Shown here piece after piece: positions 19,788 to 32,357 of a stretch of DNA of 32,357 nt (positions within the stretch are counted from its first letter, which is position 1; the number at the start of each line of letters is the position of its first letter). The stretch comes from Deltaproteobacteria bacterium. Lineage in GTDB: Bacteria; Myxococcota_A; UBA9160; SMWR01. Below the pieces are notes generated by a model. That model had not been told where the DNA came from. It searched no databases and saw only the letters and a list, made by a program, of their open reading frames with translations. Position numbers and translations under genes: made by a program. The stretch spans positions 1 to 32,357 of the forward strand of contig JAFDEI010000037.1 of the NCBI GenBank assembly GCA_019310425.1. Reading direction: 5' to 3'.

Positions 19788-20636
19788 CTACAGCGGAGTC
19801 CGGCCCGTCGGCCGGATCTTGCGTGTCAACAGCCGAATTCGACGTTGAATGATCTCGAAACGACCCCGATCGCTCACTTTCAGGCCCAAACCTTCGGGCA
19901 TCTCGGCCAGCAGCGCGGTCGTCTCCTCGATCCGATCCTCGGTCGCGGGGTGGCTCGAGAAGAATGCGAGCCCGGCGTTCCCGCTTTCCCGCCGCACCAC
20001 CTGCAGGAATGTCAGCATACCGTGCGGATCGTAGCCCGCCGCGGGCATTACCTCGATTGCGAAGACGTCGGCCTCGAGTTCGTCAGCCCGCGAGAAGCTG
20101 TTCAGCAGGGCCATCGACGCGAGCCCGCTGCCGAGGTTGGCAAGGCCACCAAAGCCGAAGAGCGATGCGGCCAGGACTCCGGCCTGCGCGGCGGTTCCAA
20201 CGTTGCGCTGGCGATCGTAGTTCTCGGCGATGTGGCGCAGCGCCACGTGACCGATCTCGTGAGCGAGGACCGAAGCGACTTCGCTCACGTTGCGGGCCTG
20301 CAGGATCGTCCCGCTGTGGATGTAGATGTAGCCCGCCGGTGCCGCGAAGGCGTTGATCTCATCGTCCTCGACGACTTCGAAACGGTACTCGAACGGTTGC
20401 GGACCGGCCGCAGAAACGATCTCCTCGCCGATCGAACGGACGTAGTCGAGCACGACCGCGTCCCGGATGAACAGCAGCTCGCCGCGCGCCTGCTGCGCGA
20501 TCTCCGCCCCGAGTTGCCTCTCCTCGGAAACCGTCACGGTGCCACAGCCGATGACCGAACCGGCCAGGATCAGCGACGTCAGCAGTGCCGCAAGAAATCT
20601 CGTGAACGAAATCGGCTCACAACATTTCGGCCGCAT
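19788..20636 (-). CDS. M48 family metallopeptidase lipoprotein
   Basis: Lipobox-like ILAGSVIGCG, zinc motif HEIGH (SVLAHEIGHVALRH), C-terminal SHPATEDRI. Confidence 0.9.
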   Translation of the reverse strand: MRPKCCEPISFTRFLAALLTSLILAGSVIGCGTVTVSEERQLGAEIAQQARGELLFIRDAVVLDYVRSIGEEIVSAAGPQPFEYRFEVVEDDEINAFAAPAGYIYIHSGTILQARNVSEVASVLAHEIGHVALRHIAENYDRQRNVGTAAQAGVLAASLFGFGGLANLGSGLASMALLNSFSRADELEADVFAIEVMPAAGYDPHGMLTFLQVVRRESGNAGLAFFSSHPATEDRIEETTALLAEMPEGLGLKVSDRGRFEIIQRRIRLLTRKIRPTGRTPL

Positions 20637-21840
20637 CGAAGTCGCCCTTCTTCCGGAGACTCTCCGTCACATGCCGAACGATCTGAAGCACCGATGAATC
20701 GAACGAAACGTTGTCGACGATCGGAACACCGTGTCGATCCGCAAGCTCGAGCAGGTGATTCTGGACTCGGAGAATCGCGTTGAGATTCTTCAGATAGCGG
20801 TGCTGCGGACGCGCCTTCGCGCTTGTCGCGCGCTCGGCGAAGCGGGTCTCGAAACCTTCCTCGTCGAGCAACGAGACCATCACGAAGAACACGTCGGCCA
20901 GATCGGCATAGACCTCGAGATCGATCAACCCAGGCACGATCGCCACGCCGTCGAGGACCAGGCTCGCGTTTTCGAGTACCGCGCGGTCCATCGACGCCCG
21001 CACCCCGACCGACACCGAAGCGGCCTGGCTCATGAATCCGTCGATGACCGGATCGTCGCCGACCGACTCGGGCGGCAACAGCTTGTGCGCGTCGTACGAG
21101 GACGCGTGCAGCGCCGGGACCAGATCCTGAGACAACATGATGCGCATGATCTGCCGAATCGAGTCGGTCGACAGTACGCGGCCGATGCCGAGCCGGTGGG
21201 CAACCTCGAGCGCGAGCGACGTCTTGCCGACGCCCGTCGCACCACCGAGCAGGATGATCACCGGGCGCTCCGGCTCCTGGTACTTGCGCCAGACCAGGTA
21301 GCGCTCGGCGGCCCGCGGACTCACCTCGCGTGTGAGCACGTCGAACGTCATCCGACGCAGATCGCGGCGATCGACCTCGTGCGTGCCGCTCGCGACCAGT
21401 TCGCGTTCGATTTCGCGTGCGACATCGAACGCGTCGTTGGGGTCGAGTGCAGCCGCGAGCAGCGACTGCGACAGGTGACCTTTCGAAAACGGCACACCTT
21501 TCCCGCGGCCCGTGACCGTGATCTCGGCACCCGGCAACGGAACCCGCGGATCCTCGGCGAAAGGCTCCGGGCCGAGGATCTCGCGCAGCATCTTGGCGAG
21601 TTCGCTCTTCTCGAGAACCACGCGATCCCCGACCCGAGAACGCACCTCGTTGGCTGCGTGAAAGGCCTCGTCGAACGCGATCCCGCGAGCCATCAGCGAG
21701 TGGATCATGATGCCGCGCATGAACGGCCGGCGTTTGCCAGCGTCCTCGACCTGAATACGACCTTTCTGACGCTCGGACAGAGAAACTCGCGCAGGCCCGG
21801 AAGCCCGTTTTCGGTCGTCCGATGAGCCCATTGGATGCAA
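20617..21840 (-). CDS. 2-phosphoglycerate kinase-like protein with N-terminal ATP-cone-like domain
   Basis: IILLGGATGVGKTSLALEVAHRLGIGRVLSTDSIRQIMR P-loop kinase core; N-terminal RRPFMRGIMIHSLMARGIAFDEAFHAANEVRSRV resembles an ATP-cone. Confidence 0.75.
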   Translation of the reverse strand: MHPMGSSDDRKRASGPARVSLSERQKGRIQVEDAGKRRPFMRGIMIHSLMARGIAFDEAFHAANEVRSRVGDRVVLEKSELAKMLREILGPEPFAEDPRVPLPGAEITVTGRGKGVPFSKGHLSQSLLAAALDPNDAFDVAREIERELVASGTHEVDRRDLRRMTFDVLTREVSPRAAERYLVWRKYQEPERPVIILLGGATGVGKTSLALEVAHRLGIGRVLSTDSIRQIMRIMLSQDLVPALHASSYDAHKLLPPESVGDDPVIDGFMSQAASVSVGVRASMDRAVLENASLVLDGVAIVPGLIDLEVYADLADVFFVMVSLLDEEGFETRFAERATSAKARPQHRYLKNLNAILRVQNHLLELADRHGVPIVDNVSFDSSVLQIVRHVTESLRKKGDFDAAEML

Positions 21841-21944
21841 TCTACCCCACGCCCGAGCAGCGTGCGAGGCAAACCGGAAGAACGGAAAACCAGTGGAATC
21901 TGTGATGTTTTTGAGAGATCATGACAAATCACCTGCATTTTGGG

Positions 21945-21974
21945 TTGACTTTTGAGCTGCAACGCGTCTAGGCT
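21945..21974 (+). promoter_or_regulatory. Candidate promoter for the MerR-like gene
   Basis: TTGACT (21945-21950), 18-bp spacer, TAGGCT (21969-21974) upstream of the GTG at 22002; weak -10. Confidence 0.35.
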
Positions 21975-22001: not shown

Positions 22002-22484
22002 GTGAGTTCGAGACCACCCAGTGATCTGTACCCCGTTCGCGATGTCGTCGAGATCCTGAAAATCTCGCGCCGCCAACTCCAATACTGGGCTCTGACCGAT
22101 CTGATCGCACCGAGTGAGCACACCGAGGGCGGGCACGGACGGTACACATTCGAAGATCTCGTCGCCCTCAAGGCCGCCAAACGCCTGATCGACTCCGGTG
22201 TTTCGGTACAACGCATCCGAAAATCGATCGGTGTGCTGCGCCGCATGCTGCCCTCCGTCGAGCGCCCGCTCGCTGAACTGGTGCTGGTGGCGACCGGCGA
22301 TGTCGTCCTGGCTTTCCGTGACGGCACCGCGTTCGACGCACTCTCGGGCCAGGAGTGGGTCTTCGAAGTCGCGAAATTCCAACGGGAGATCGAGGACTGG
22401 AAACGTTCGGTCGACTCGCTGGCGACCGCCAAGAAAGCGACCCGAACCGTTGATCGATCGGGGGTACGAAACCAGAGCGCGTGA
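22002..22484 (+). CDS. MerR family transcriptional regulator
   Basis: N-terminal winged helix (YPVRDVVEILKISRRQLQYWALTDLIAPSEHTEGGHGRYTFEDLVALKAAKRLIDSGVSVQRIRKSI). GTG start. Confidence 0.85.
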   Translation: MSSRPPSDLYPVRDVVEILKISRRQLQYWALTDLIAPSEHTEGGHGRYTFEDLVALKAAKRLIDSGVSVQRIRKSIGVLRRMLPSVERPLAELVLVATGDVVLAFRDGTAFDALSGQEWVFEVAKFQREIEDWKRSVDSLATAKKATRTVDRSGVRNQSA

Positions 22485-22673
22485 AGCGGCACCCTCCTCC
22501 TCCGGCGTCAGCGGCCCTTGACCGGGTGCCGCCAGCCGCCAGCCAACCCTGAACGGGCTGCGAGCAACGAGCTACCAGCAGCGATAACCAGCCTTCGGCA
22601 GCATCAGCGTCAGAGGCTGGTCGTGTGAGAATCCGGCGAGCAGGTCCGGCGTCTGGGTGGGGGGGGGTAGCGC

Positions 22674-23762
22674 ATGCGTATCATCGGAATCGTGAACCAG
22701 AAGGGTGGCTGCGGGAAGACGACCACCACGGTCAATCTCGCCGGTAGCCTGGCGGCTGACGGAGCGAGGGTGTTGGTGGTCGACCTGGACCCCCAGGCCC
22801 ATGCCACGCTGGCATTGGGCATCGACCCCGAAGACCTCGAAGAGAATCTCTACGAGGTCTTGACCGACCCCGACGGCGCCGATCGCCTGCAGGAAGTTCT
22901 GGTCCAGGGCGGAGGAGATGTCGCGATCGCGCCCTCCGGAATCGTGCTTTCCGCACTCGAGCAGAGGCTCGCGAACGCGGAGATCGAATCGCGGACCGAC
23001 CGCCTCTCGAATGCGCTCGAAACCGTACAGGGGATGTTCGATTATGCCCTGATCGACTGCCCGCCGAATGTGGGTCTGCTGACCTTCAACGCACTGCGCG
23101 CCGCCAGCGAGGTGATCGTCCCGCTCGAGATGAGCTACTTCGCGATCCACGGCGTCCAGAAGCTGATCGAAACCATCGCACTCCTGTCCGAGCGCGTCTC
23201 GCACGACCTCGAAGTGCGGATCCTGCCGACGCTCTACGACGGCCGCACGCGACACGCGCGCCAGACTCTCGCGGAAATCCGCGAAATGTACAAAGACCTT
23301 TGCTTCGATACCGTGATCCGGCTCAACGTGAAGCTGCGCGAGGCGGCCAATCGCGGCCTGCCGATCTGCCTCTTCGCACCGTCCGCCAACGGTTCGCGCG
23401 ACTACAACGCGCTCGCCGTGGAGGTCGAGGCGTCGGACCCGAGCTTCGCCGACGCAACCCTCGGCGAGAATGCCGGTCTCGCGGAAGATCCCGTTCGCGA
23501 GGTAGTGGTGCGATTCCGCGACGCCAGCGCAAACGATGTCCGCATCGCGGGCGATTTCAACGGCTGGATTCCAGACAAGGGCGTGCGATCACTGATAGAA
23601 TCAGAGGGAAGCGAGCGGGTCTGGACGAAAATCCTCCAGCTGCCGCCCGGAACCTACGAGTACCGGTACGTCGTCGATGGTGAGTGGCGCGAAGACCCCC
23701 AGAATCCGGAGTTCGATTCGGGATCCACGGGAGGGCGCAATTCGATTCTCGTCGTCCGGTAG
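22674..23762 (+). CDS. ParA/Soj-like ATPase fused to a C-terminal AMPK-beta/CBM48-like (E-set) domain
   Basis: Residues ~1-250: MRIIGIVNQKGGCGKTTTTVNLAGSLA (deviant Walker A), VVDLDPQAHATLALG, ALIDCPPNVGLLTFNAL. C-terminus: VREVVVRFRDASANDVRIAGDFNGWIPDKG...WTKILQLPPGTYEYRYVVDGEWREDPQNPEF. Confidence 0.92.
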   Translation: MRIIGIVNQKGGCGKTTTTVNLAGSLAADGARVLVVDLDPQAHATLALGIDPEDLEENLYEVLTDPDGADRLQEVLVQGGGDVAIAPSGIVLSALEQRLANAEIESRTDRLSNALETVQGMFDYALIDCPPNVGLLTFNALRAASEVIVPLEMSYFAIHGVQKLIETIALLSERVSHDLEVRILPTLYDGRTRHARQTLAEIREMYKDLCFDTVIRLNVKLREAANRGLPICLFAPSANGSRDYNALAVEVEASDPSFADATLGENAGLAEDPVREVVVRFRDASANDVRIAGDFNGWIPDKGVRSLIESEGSERVWTKILQLPPGTYEYRYVVDGEWREDPQNPEFDSGSTGGRNSILVVR

Positions 23763-23777
23763 GGAAGACGTGCGAAA

Positions 23778-24569
23778 TTGCCCCGCGATCTCGGCGACGT
23801 AATTCACCATTTCCTGCCCCAGGACGGGAACGGCACGGGTCCGGACTCCGTCACCGGCGGGCCGCGACTGGAACGGCCGGCGGCGCTTCCGATCATTTCC
23901 CTGCCAATCGGCGACCGCGACGTCGTGCGCGCCGCCTATGCGTGGAACCTCGCCGTCGAGGTCGCACGACGCGGTGCGAGCGCAACGCTGCTCGCACCCG
24001 TAAGTGCGGAACCGTCGCCACTGTGGCCCGAGCCCGGCCGCGGCCCCGTGGGTGCCGAAGTCGTGCTCGCCGACGTGAACGACTTCGGCGAATTGAATCG
24101 CGCGGCGCTGGACATTGCCGTGGGTCGTGCGGCAGACTCCGGCGACGGCGGCGTGGTGCTGGTCAGCGTGCCACCCGCGTGGTTCGAGAACGCCAACGAG
24201 GGCCGCGCGCTGATGCGCTGGGTGCTGTTATTCGCCGCCGCGGAGGCCCGGGATTTGCGCGAAATTTACGGCTTGGCCAAACGAATCATCCGCACCAACC
24301 CGGAGGCCCGGGTCGGCATCACCGTTCACGGTGTGCGCCGGATCGGCGAAGCGGAAAGCGCGTTCAAGAAGCTCTCGGGCGCAGCCCAGCGCCACCTCGG
24401 GTACCCGCTCACGAGCTACGGCCTGCTCGTCGACGACCTGCACGTCTACCGCGCCATCGTGTCACGTCGACCGATCGGCCTCGAGCACCCCCAGTCACGC
24501 GCGGCCAAGGCCCTGCGCGACGTCGCCCGGATGCTGTTGGAAGACGCCCGGATGCTCGCCAATGCCTGA
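23778..24569 (+). CDS. MinD/FlhG-like protein with degenerate nucleotide-binding loop
   Basis: IISLPIGDRDVVRAAYAWNLAVEVARRGASATLLAP aligns by pattern to the MinD N-terminus but lacks GKGGxGKT; C-terminal FKKLSGAAQRHLGYPLTSYGLLVDDLHVYRAIVSRRPIGLEHPQSRAAKALRDVARML resembles the MinD/FlhG C-terminus. TTG start assumed. Confidence 0.65.
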   Translation: MPRDLGDVIHHFLPQDGNGTGPDSVTGGPRLERPAALPIISLPIGDRDVVRAAYAWNLAVEVARRGASATLLAPVSAEPSPLWPEPGRGPVGAEVVLADVNDFGELNRAALDIAVGRAADSGDGGVVLVSVPPAWFENANEGRALMRWVLLFAAAEARDLREIYGLAKRIIRTNPEARVGITVHGVRRIGEAESAFKKLSGAAQRHLGYPLTSYGLLVDDLHVYRAIVSRRPIGLEHPQSRAAKALRDVARMLLEDARMLANA

Positions 24570-25152
24570 TCTCCAGCTGATCGCTCCGCCGCCGCGCGAC
24601 GAGTTGATCGCACAGCTGCGCGGCCGCCTCGGCCATGCAGTACCGGGCCTGCGCGTGCTCGCCGAGAGGCTGCTCGGCGCCGATTCGACCATCGACTTCG
24701 TCGCGCTCGAACCGACCGGGCGCGTGGTGCTGATTCTCGTCGGTGATCGCAATGACGACCTCGAACTCGTCGGGCGCGGGCTCGCGCAGCGCGCCTGGGT
24801 GTCGGCGCGCCTCGGCGACTGGACGCAGCTGGCGCCGAATCTCGGCCTGGAGCCCGACGCCGAGGTACGGGTCGTGCTGGCCTGCCCCGCATTCGGTGCC
24901 GAAGCGTCTGCGGCGCTGCGCGCGCTCGGGAGCAGTGTGATGACCGCGGTGACCTATCGCTGCGTCCAGAACGGCGTGGGTTTCGAGGTCCTCCTCGAGC
25001 ACCCCTTCGCGATGGACCCCGAGCTCGCAGGTGAGCCCGTAGGCTCGACGCAATCGTCCACCCCCGACTCGAGCAACCCGCCGTCGTTTCGCACCGGCCT
25101 CAGCGACGCCGACCTCGGGCTCACGCCCGAGGAACGGAGCGAGTTCGACTAA
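24562..25152 (+). CDS. Conserved hypothetical protein, translationally coupled to the upstream MinD-like gene
   Basis: ATG at 24562 overlaps the preceding stop by 8 nt; continuous globular sequence (LIAQLRGRLGHAVPGLRVLAERLLGADSTIDFVALEPTGRVVLILVGDRNDDLELVGRGLAQRAWV...). Confidence 0.75.
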   Translation: MPDLQLIAPPPRDELIAQLRGRLGHAVPGLRVLAERLLGADSTIDFVALEPTGRVVLILVGDRNDDLELVGRGLAQRAWVSARLGDWTQLAPNLGLEPDAEVRVVLACPAFGAEASAALRALGSSVMTAVTYRCVQNGVGFEVLLEHPFAMDPELAGEPVGSTQSSTPDSSNPPSFRTGLSDADLGLTPEERSEFD

Positions 25153-25203
25153 GAGCGCGCTGCCCCATCCCGCCCCAGCACAGTGAGATTTCCCCACGGG
25201 AAC

Positions 25204-25257
25204 AGAATTTTCCAGAATTCTTGGAGAATTAGTGACAATTTTTGACACCTGGTGACA
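25204..25257. promoter_or_regulatory. AT-rich phased-repeat region upstream of the ECF sigma gene
   Basis: AGAATT at 25204, 25214, 25225; AATT at 25206, 25216, 25227, 25237; TGACA at 25233, 25243, 25253 (about one helical turn apart). Confidence 0.6.
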
Positions 25258-25330
25258 CAACGCGACCACTCCCTCACCGGGGGCCTCTTCTTCTGTGGAT
25301 GGAAGAGCCGAGCCCTGGGGAGATGGATTC

Positions 25331-25912
25331 ATGGCGGCTGCTGAACCGATCGTTGCAACGGAGATCTTGGACGAGGAGCTGATCGAGCGGGTCCAGCAGA
25401 GCGACCGCGCGGCCTTCGACATCCTCTACGAGCGCTACTTCCCGAGAGTCTCCGGCTACGTCCGTCGCCGCGTAGACAACCGCGCAGACGTCGAGGAAAT
25501 CGTCCAGGACGTCTTCATCAACGTCTTCACCTCCCTCGACTCGTTCCGCGGCGAGGCCCCTTTCGCTGCCTGGGTGCTCGGCATCTCGCGCTACACCATC
25601 GCGGGCCGATTCAAGAAGAAGCAGCACAAGATGGTGCCGCTCGACGGCACCCATCACGAAGACGAGAACGAGATGTCCTTTGCCGACCAACAGCGTGAGC
25701 CCTCGCCGCTCGAGCACTACGAATGCCGAGAGCGCATCAGCGAGCTCGAGACTACGGCCAGAACCCGGCTCACGCTCGATCAGTGGCAGCTCGTCGAACT
25801 CCACCACGTGAAGAACCACTCGGTCCGCCAGATGGCGTCCGACCTCGACCGCAGTGAGGATTCGATCAAGTCCAACCTCTACCGCGCGCGCAAGCTGCTG
25901 CTGGCGCGGTAG
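25331..25912 (+). CDS. ECF-type sigma-70 family RNA polymerase sigma factor
   Basis: Region 2 (AAFDILYERYFPRVSGYVRRRVDNRADVEEIVQDVFINVFTSLDSFRGEAPFAAWVLGISRYTI) and region 4 (LDQWQLVELHHVKNHSVRQMASDLDRSEDSIKSNLYRARKLL). Confidence 0.9.
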   Translation: MAAAEPIVATEILDEELIERVQQSDRAAFDILYERYFPRVSGYVRRRVDNRADVEEIVQDVFINVFTSLDSFRGEAPFAAWVLGISRYTIAGRFKKKQHKMVPLDGTHHEDENEMSFADQQREPSPLEHYECRERISELETTARTRLTLDQWQLVELHHVKNHSVRQMASDLDRSEDSIKSNLYRARKLLLAR

Positions 25913-31397: not shown

Positions 31398-32357
31398 TTG
31401 GCTCCTGACGCTCCGCGCTCGCTACTCGAGCGAAGGGTCGTGATCGTGACGGGCAAGGGCGGAACCGGGAAGACCACGGTCACGGCCGCACTCGCGGTCG
31501 CGGCTGCAAAGGCCGGAAAGCGGGTTCTGGTGGCCGAAATGGGCCGAGATGAGCAGATTCCACGGCTGCTGTGCCCGGGCTCGCCCGCGGTGGGCTATGT
31601 CGGCCGTGAGCTCATGCCGGGCATCCGGGCGATGCGAATCGACCCATTCGAGGCACTCAGCGAGTATCTCACGCTCCAGATCGGCCTGAAACCGCTGGTC
31701 GATACGGTCATCAGCAACCAGGCGTTCCAGCAGTTGATGACGGCCGCACCGGGCTGGCGCGAGCTGATCACACTCGGAAAGATCTGGCATCTCGAGCAGT
31801 TACGGGAGCCAGACGGGCGCCCGTGTTACGACTACATCGTCGTGGATGCGCCCGCGACCGGGCACGGTGTGACCTTTCTCGACGTGCCGCGCGTCGTCAT
31901 CTCGGCGGTTCGCGCGGGTCCGCTTCACCAGCACACCGAGGCCGTCGAGGCGCTGATCGAGGATCCGGAGCGCACGCTGCTCTTGCCGGTGACACTCGCC
32001 GAGGAGCTGCCGGTTCGCGAGACCAACGAGCTGATCGAGCGAGTCCGGTCCGACCTCGCGATCGCGGTCGATCGCGTGGTGGTGAACGCCGTCGCGCCTG
32101 CCCCGTTTCCGGCGGGCCTCGAACACCTCGATGAAGCGCTCGCGCGACTGCCCGATGCAATTCCGCTCGGCGCGTTGCCCCCGCCCGGCCAGCTCGCGGC
32201 CTGCGCGCGCACGCTGCGATTGCGCCACGAGCTGAACGCGCGCTTCGTGAGCGAGATCGCCGAGGGCACCGCGCTGCCGTTGGTCATATTGCCGCGGCTG
32301 CACGGTGGGATCGAGGGGCCACGTGAGATCGAAGAGCTGGCTTCGGCGCTGGTAGCC
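31398..32357 (+). CDS. ArsA/GET3-family ATPase (3' truncated by window edge)
   Basis: TTG at 31398 with GGAGG at 31388-31392; RRVVIVTGKGGTGKTTVTAALAVAAAKAGKRVLVAEMG; YDYIVVDAPATGHGVTFLDVPRVV. Open to base 32357, so it was missed by the ORF track. Confidence 0.88.
   Translation, partial: MAPDAPRSLLERRVVIVTGKGGTGKTTVTAALAVAAAKAGKRVLVAEMGRDEQIPRLLCPGSPAVGYVGRELMPGIRAMRIDPFEALSEYLTLQIGLKPLVDTVISNQAFQQLMTAAPGWRELITLGKIWHLEQLREPDGRPCYDYIVVDAPATGHGVTFLDVPRVVISAVRAGPLHQHTEAVEALIEDPERTLLLPVTLAEELPVRETNELIERVRSDLAIAVDRVVVNAVAPAPFPAGLEHLDEALARLPDAIPLGALPPPGQLAACARTLRLRHELNARFVSEIAEGTALPLVILPRLHGGIEGPREIEELASALVA

Follow-up and report, generated by a model that had tools for sequence, protein, structure and literature searches.

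A recurrent gene set built around a ParA ATPase with a CBM48-like domain probably encodes a new intracellular positioning system

Five consecutive plus-strand genes were analyzed in a 32,357-nucleotide stretch of DNA (contig JAFDEI010000037.1 of a Deltaproteobacteria bacterium from the GTDB group UBA9160), which is referred to as the window. They code for a MerR-family protein, a ParA-type ATPase with a C-terminal carbohydrate-binding-module-like domain (ParA-CBM), a MinD-like protein, a protein called P5 and an extracytoplasmic function (ECF) sigma factor, in the order and at the positions given in an initial annotation. Conserved linkage, the loss of catalytic motifs from two of the proteins, the conservation and specificity of an N-terminal motif and its resemblance to the N-terminus of ParB indicate that the gene set probably codes for a new system of intracellular positioning. 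We favor, as fairly probable, a ParA-type module for positioning or partition that has not been described before, in which the protein encoded next to ParA-CBM would be a partner with an activating peptide and the pseudo-enzymes would serve as adaptors. A wider formulation is advanced with more reserve, as a possibility to be taken seriously: a new type of ParA positioning system that spans phyla, with interchangeable tagged partners and with a pseudo-FlhG and a pseudo-NucS as cargo adaptors. In bacteria, the cargos organized by ParA/MinD ATPases are numerous and include genetic as well as protein cargos, and over a third of genomes encode several such ATPases (PMC10241942); few of the cargos are known. 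The module is conserved across several phyla, and literature searches for the gene combination gave nothing relevant and no description of it, in agreement with its earlier designation as a candidate undescribed locus.

ParA-CBM (22674–23762, + strand) combines a Soj-type ParA ATPase (residues 1 to about 250; AAA_31, PF13614, E-value 6e-50) with a domain of the AMPK1_CBM/CBM48 type (residues 278–361 at 23505–23756, + strand; AMPK1_CBM, PF16561, E-value 9e-13). The deviant Walker A motif reads KGGCGKTT in the window and conforms to KGGxGK[ST] in 75 of 82 ParA-CBM sequences; three others are truncated or mis-framed. The variant KGGCAKTT, with a glycine-to-alanine exchange, was seen in four of the 82 (L042, L086, L090 and L093). 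Among aligned homologs the CBM motif GDFNGW is invariant (79/79) and DGxW is present in 78 of 79. The positions which we take to be equivalent to the sugar-stacking tryptophans W100 and W133, numbered according to an AMPK beta sequence, are conserved. As these tryptophan positions are kept, the domain may still bind some glycan.

The MinD-like gene (23778–24569, + strand) begins with a TTG start codon 15 nt behind ParA-CBM and shares nucleotides 24562–24569 with P5, which accounts for the 8-nt overlap noticed before. Neither the MinD-like protein nor P5 gave a match in Pfam, NCBIfam, PHROGs or PADLOC. A profile search against solved structures identified FleN (1.3e-18) as a relative of the MinD-like protein, and Foldseek matched its structure model, which has a predicted local distance difference test score (pLDDT) of 90 and poorly ordered first 30 residues, to FlhG (1.9e-12). 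Both results point to a SIMIBI fold of the FlhG/FleN type. Walker A has been lost in all 48 MinD-like homologs, none of which has GxxxxGK[ST], so that the absence of a P-loop, described initially for the window protein, is a trait of the family. Judged by the residues lost, the protein would be an inactivated enzyme. Furthermore, the DQAxxLR enhancer helix of FlhG is absent from its N-terminus, where a different motif is found. A flagellar role is disfavored, as no flagellin was found in 32 of 41 genomes; the nine genomes with flagellin do not include the home genome.

P5 (24562–25152, + strand) is a protein of the PD-(D/E)XK nuclease fold without the catalytic E-x-K. Its model (pLDDT 88.9) has EndoMS/NucS as best Foldseek fold (9e-5, probability 1.0), with modest template modeling scores of 0.45 or less, and is closest to NucS within this fold. 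Sequence matches were weak (UPF0102, 0.029; NucS, 0.71). The motif-II aspartate D45 is kept in 39 of 43 aligned sequences and E-x-K is missing from all 43, a pattern of residue loss expected of an inactivated nuclease. The C-terminal tail FRTGLSDADLGLTPEERSEFD (25087–25149, + strand), in which F176 and L180 are at least 90% conserved, is possibly a second candidate short linear or docking motif. Echoes of the tail pattern FRxGLxxxDLxLTxEExxEF were seen as LTPEEIAEF in L108, as DLTPEEFAQVF inside the fusion protein of L117 and as AGLTDQDIRDF in L204. Two enzyme folds without their catalytic motifs would now be part of a ParA system.

Three points have to be added to the initial annotation: the MinD-like protein descends from FlhG/FleN, P5 has a nuclease fold, and the proteins encoded behind ParA-CBM have an N-terminal motif in common. 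In the home lineage, the protein directly following ParA-CBM opens with (M)PRDLxDVLHYFLP, and elsewhere with a sequence like RGLEEISHLFLS. In the window the motif reads MPRDLGDVIHHFLP and forms the N-terminus of the MinD-like protein (23778–23819, + strand); R3, L5 and V8 are at least 90% conserved in this family. The proteins that carry it vary. Besides MinD-like proteins, P5 alone (L101), PAS proteins (L112 and L115, both cut by contig ends) and a protein composed of a MerR-like helix-turn-helix (HTH), a coiled coil and a hydrophobic segment (L206) begin in this way, and at the acidobacterial locus L111 the motif is present in cis, fused to ParA-CBM itself. A motif profile built from 11 distant examples gave one clear match in each of these 11 training genomes, with the next-best E-value at 0.03 or above. 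Among 394 Desulfobacterota genomes outside the training set it found eight matches at E ≤ 1e-3, six of which start the gene immediately after ParA-CBM; the other two are unrelated. This distant-row profile scores no home-lineage MinD-like protein at 1e-2, and the home motifs were read by eye and with a regular expression.

In the same lineage ParB begins with RNALGRGLGALIP, a sequence close to the Desulfobacterota form of the motif (RLGRGLKDVSRFYLS, L205) and to the form in L111 (RRLGRGLEDVSDAFLS). Activators of ParA/MinD ATPases work through a short peptide at their N-terminus, in which a basic residue is essential (PMC13170346, PMC10241942). By its sequence, the motif would be a ParA-activating peptide like that of ParB, which leads to a residue-level prediction: Arg3 of the MinD-like protein would be the activating residue. 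At the Omnitrophota loci L098 and L099, ParA-CBM is preceded by a gene for a probable membrane protein whose start, MANKRVADILARTYFS, may be a variant form of the partner motif that is longer by one residue.

The search with ParA-CBM over named genomes yielded 80 loci; uncultured Myxococcota/Deltaproteobacteria that are relatives of isolate UBA9160 account for about 57. A MinD-like gene follows ParA-CBM also in Planctomycetota, Gammaproteobacteria, Desulfobacterota and Omnitrophota, and P5 does so in several of these. In Gammaproteobacteria, MerR, ParA-CBM, the MinD-like protein and P5 occur together in unrelated surroundings; loci from Desulfobacterota, Planctomycetota and Omnitrophota combine ParA-CBM with the MinD-like protein, P5 or both. 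Moreover, the MinD-like protein and P5 are apparently one protein in Planctomycetota (L100 and L117, as read from the sequence), and ParA-CBM and P5 are joined in a single protein in the acidobacterial L111 (P5 profile, E = 5e-11). Fifteen further gammaproteobacterial loci were found with ParA only. The same MerR family, whose profile reaches an E-value of about 1e-55 at gammaproteobacterial loci, is encoded upstream in 11 of the 15 (one a fragment). The motif or a MinD-like protein lies downstream in ten, all of them with MerR, and four loci have neither. No match to MerR was obtained at the loci from Desulfobacterota, Planctomycetota and Omnitrophota, and none of the distant loci examined gave a match to ECF. 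In one Desulfobacterota group (L203, L204 and L210) ParA-CBM is preceded by a gene that, by sequence appearance only, is rubrerythrin- or ferritin-like.

ParA-CBM, MinD-like and P5 genes are therefore co-located rather than scattered in distant genomes, as expected for the recurring unit proposed at the outset. The suggestion that all five genes form one module holds in part: the three genes recur distantly and MerR does so in Gammaproteobacteria, while ECF was found in the home lineage only.

At the 41 home-lineage loci with full flanks, ParA-CBM is followed by a MinD-like gene in 39 cases and by P5 in 35; MerR precedes it in 32 and ECF is present in 39. This linkage is far beyond chance. Taken alone it is weak evidence, because the wider region is syntenic too and includes genes for 2-phosphoglycerate kinase, an M48 peptidase, SppA, DsbA and phosphohexomutase. 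Natural deletions (L236–L239) show which genes can persist without others. G024 retains MerR but has lost ParA, MinD-like, P5 and ECF; G027 and G038 lack all five genes, and G033 retains ParA and ECF only. MerR thus persists without ParA, and ParA and ECF persist without the MinD-like protein. The joint loss of ECF and the ParA block in G024, G027 and G038 fits one deletion each. The ECF sigma factor (25295–25912, + strand; sigma70_r2, 1.4e-12) had been counted among the core parts of the locus. Its occurrence in the home lineage only, where the surroundings are equally syntenic, does not support this, and it is regarded as a lineage-specific neighbor.

In the favored positioning module, ParA-CBM would be an active ATPase that dimerizes in the ATP-bound form. 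The first about 14 residues of the partner, including Arg3, would bind ParA-CBM and trigger hydrolysis, as in ParB. The dead FlhG/FleN relative and the pseudo-nuclease P5 would act as adaptors joining ParA-CBM to a cargo that is thereby positioned, and the CBM may contribute to this role. During evolution, partners would have been swapped and the tag kept. MerR, encoded by the first gene of the set, could regulate the module or, as a DNA-binding element, link it to DNA.

Such a module resembles several known systems without coinciding with any of them. With ParABS (Soj-ParB) it shares a Soj-type ParA and a partner whose N-terminus is a basic, (L)GRGL-like peptide, but its partners have no ParB fold, its ParA carries CBM48 and relatives keep a separate Soj-ParB pair. 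McdAB and PomXYZ also consist of a ParA/MinD ATPase and a cognate partner with an activating N-terminal peptide (here predicted), and a non-DNA cargo is plausible; the partners, however, are a putative pseudo-ATPase and a putative pseudo-nuclease instead of McdB, PomX or PomY. FlhG activates FlhF through an N-terminal helix (PMC12826062). The MinD-like protein has the fold of FlhG/FleN (known with FlhF and FleQ), and its N-terminal extension may likewise act on a partner NTPase. In contrast to FlhG/FleN, it has neither Walker A nor DQAxxLR, most of its hosts lack flagellin and its partner would be ParA rather than a signal recognition particle GTPase. P5 resembles NucS/EndoMS and other PD-(D/E)XK nucleases in the best fold of its model, whereas the missing E-x-K (43/43) and the new C-terminal tail motif set it apart. 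RacA comes to mind as a MerR-type HTH linked to a ParA-type system (a weak NCBIfam match), and the L206 partner consists of an HTH and a coiled coil; yet the window MerR scores 22.9 bits versus a RacA cut-off of 170 bits and does not have the RacA architecture.

Several observations weigh against a positioning module. No consistent cargo gene is adjacent, and the distant loci have no other neighbor in common. About ten distant ParA-CBM loci are without a recognizable motif protein nearby. In comparison with Soj, ParA-CBM does not conserve the arginine of the IPRN motif, and therefore its binding to DNA is uncertain. Finally, the N-terminal partner motif, being amphipathic, could serve as an anchor in the membrane. 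The N-terminus would then be a membrane-targeting helix and the module a membrane-bound complex, a use of terminal amphipathic helices that is known from MinD and FlhG, and the C-terminal helix of the MinD-like protein weakly resembles the motif. A near-invariant arginine and other specific residues, strict linkage to ParA-CBM and the similarity to the ParB N-terminus make this explanation quite improbable. A regulatory switch, in which the pseudo-FleN and P5 act on MerR or on other transcription according to the nucleotide state of ParA-CBM, as FleN modulates FleQ, is unlikely. It would suit the proximity of the MinD-like family to FleN/FlhG, the one MerR family upstream in home-lineage and gammaproteobacterial loci and the fusion of the motif to a MerR-like HTH in L206. 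Yet MerR is missing in 9 of the 41 home-lineage loci, is unmatched at the loci from the three other phyla and persists without ParA in G024, and the motif resembles the ParA-activating peptide of ParB.

Positioning of alpha-glucan (glycogen) granules via CBM48 is very improbable, although the sugar-site positions in GDFNGW and DGxW are near invariant across phyla and in L206 the module faces a convergent gene that, judged by its sequence, codes for a glycogen branching enzyme. Glycogen synthase GlgA was found in nine of the 41 genomes and had no match in 32; branching enzyme GlgB exceeded the cut-off in 18, and the home genome has neither. Module carriers without these enzymes include the 94–98% complete G004, G010, G020, G028, G034 and G039, and the conserved CBM positions are also general features of the CBM48 fold. 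As most host genomes lack glycogen synthase, glycogen is disfavored as cargo. A role in segregating chromosomes or plasmids, in which ParA-CBM would act as the cells' own Soj, has hardly any likelihood left. ParA-CBM is Soj-type, the home assembly shows no second strong Soj and no ParB, and the earlier statement that no ParB lies near the locus in the window is correct. Relatives, however, carry both Soj and ParB, adjacent to each other, and the gap in the home genome is therefore probably an assembly gap. This second pair in most relatives already largely refutes the segregation role, and ParA-CBM is rejected as the chromosomal ParA. Furthermore, an unrooted tree sets ParA-CBM apart from the relatives' Soj at 100/100 support, and the locus lies within conserved chromosomal synteny.

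The MerR-family DNA-binding protein (22002–22484, + strand; MerR_1, PF13411, 2e-14) has a conserved C-terminal segment, TGDVVLxFxxGTxFxAxSGQEWVFEVA in the alignment. It is preceded by a promoter-like element (21938–21974, + strand) composed of TTTTGGG, TTGACT (21945–21950), an 18-nt spacer and TAGGCT (21969–21974). About 20 related loci have conserved the arrangement TTTTGGG-TTGACT-N17/18-TAcGcT ahead of MerR, which is consistent with a MerR-led operon. When the region upstream of ParA was searched for operators, no site was clearly repeated, and only the element before MerR stood out. Palindromes were listed in three intergenic regions; an imperfect one, AATTTTCCA-N7-TGGAGAATT (25206–25230), lies before the ECF gene and is a possible candidate operator. 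The constant upstream neighbor of the locus in the home lineage is represented in the window by a 2-phosphoglycerate kinase-like gene (20617–21840) with an ATP-cone and a kinase domain. A further SIMIBI-class P-loop ATPase with a weak AAA_31 match (1.2e-5) is encoded at 31434–32357 and is cut by the window end.

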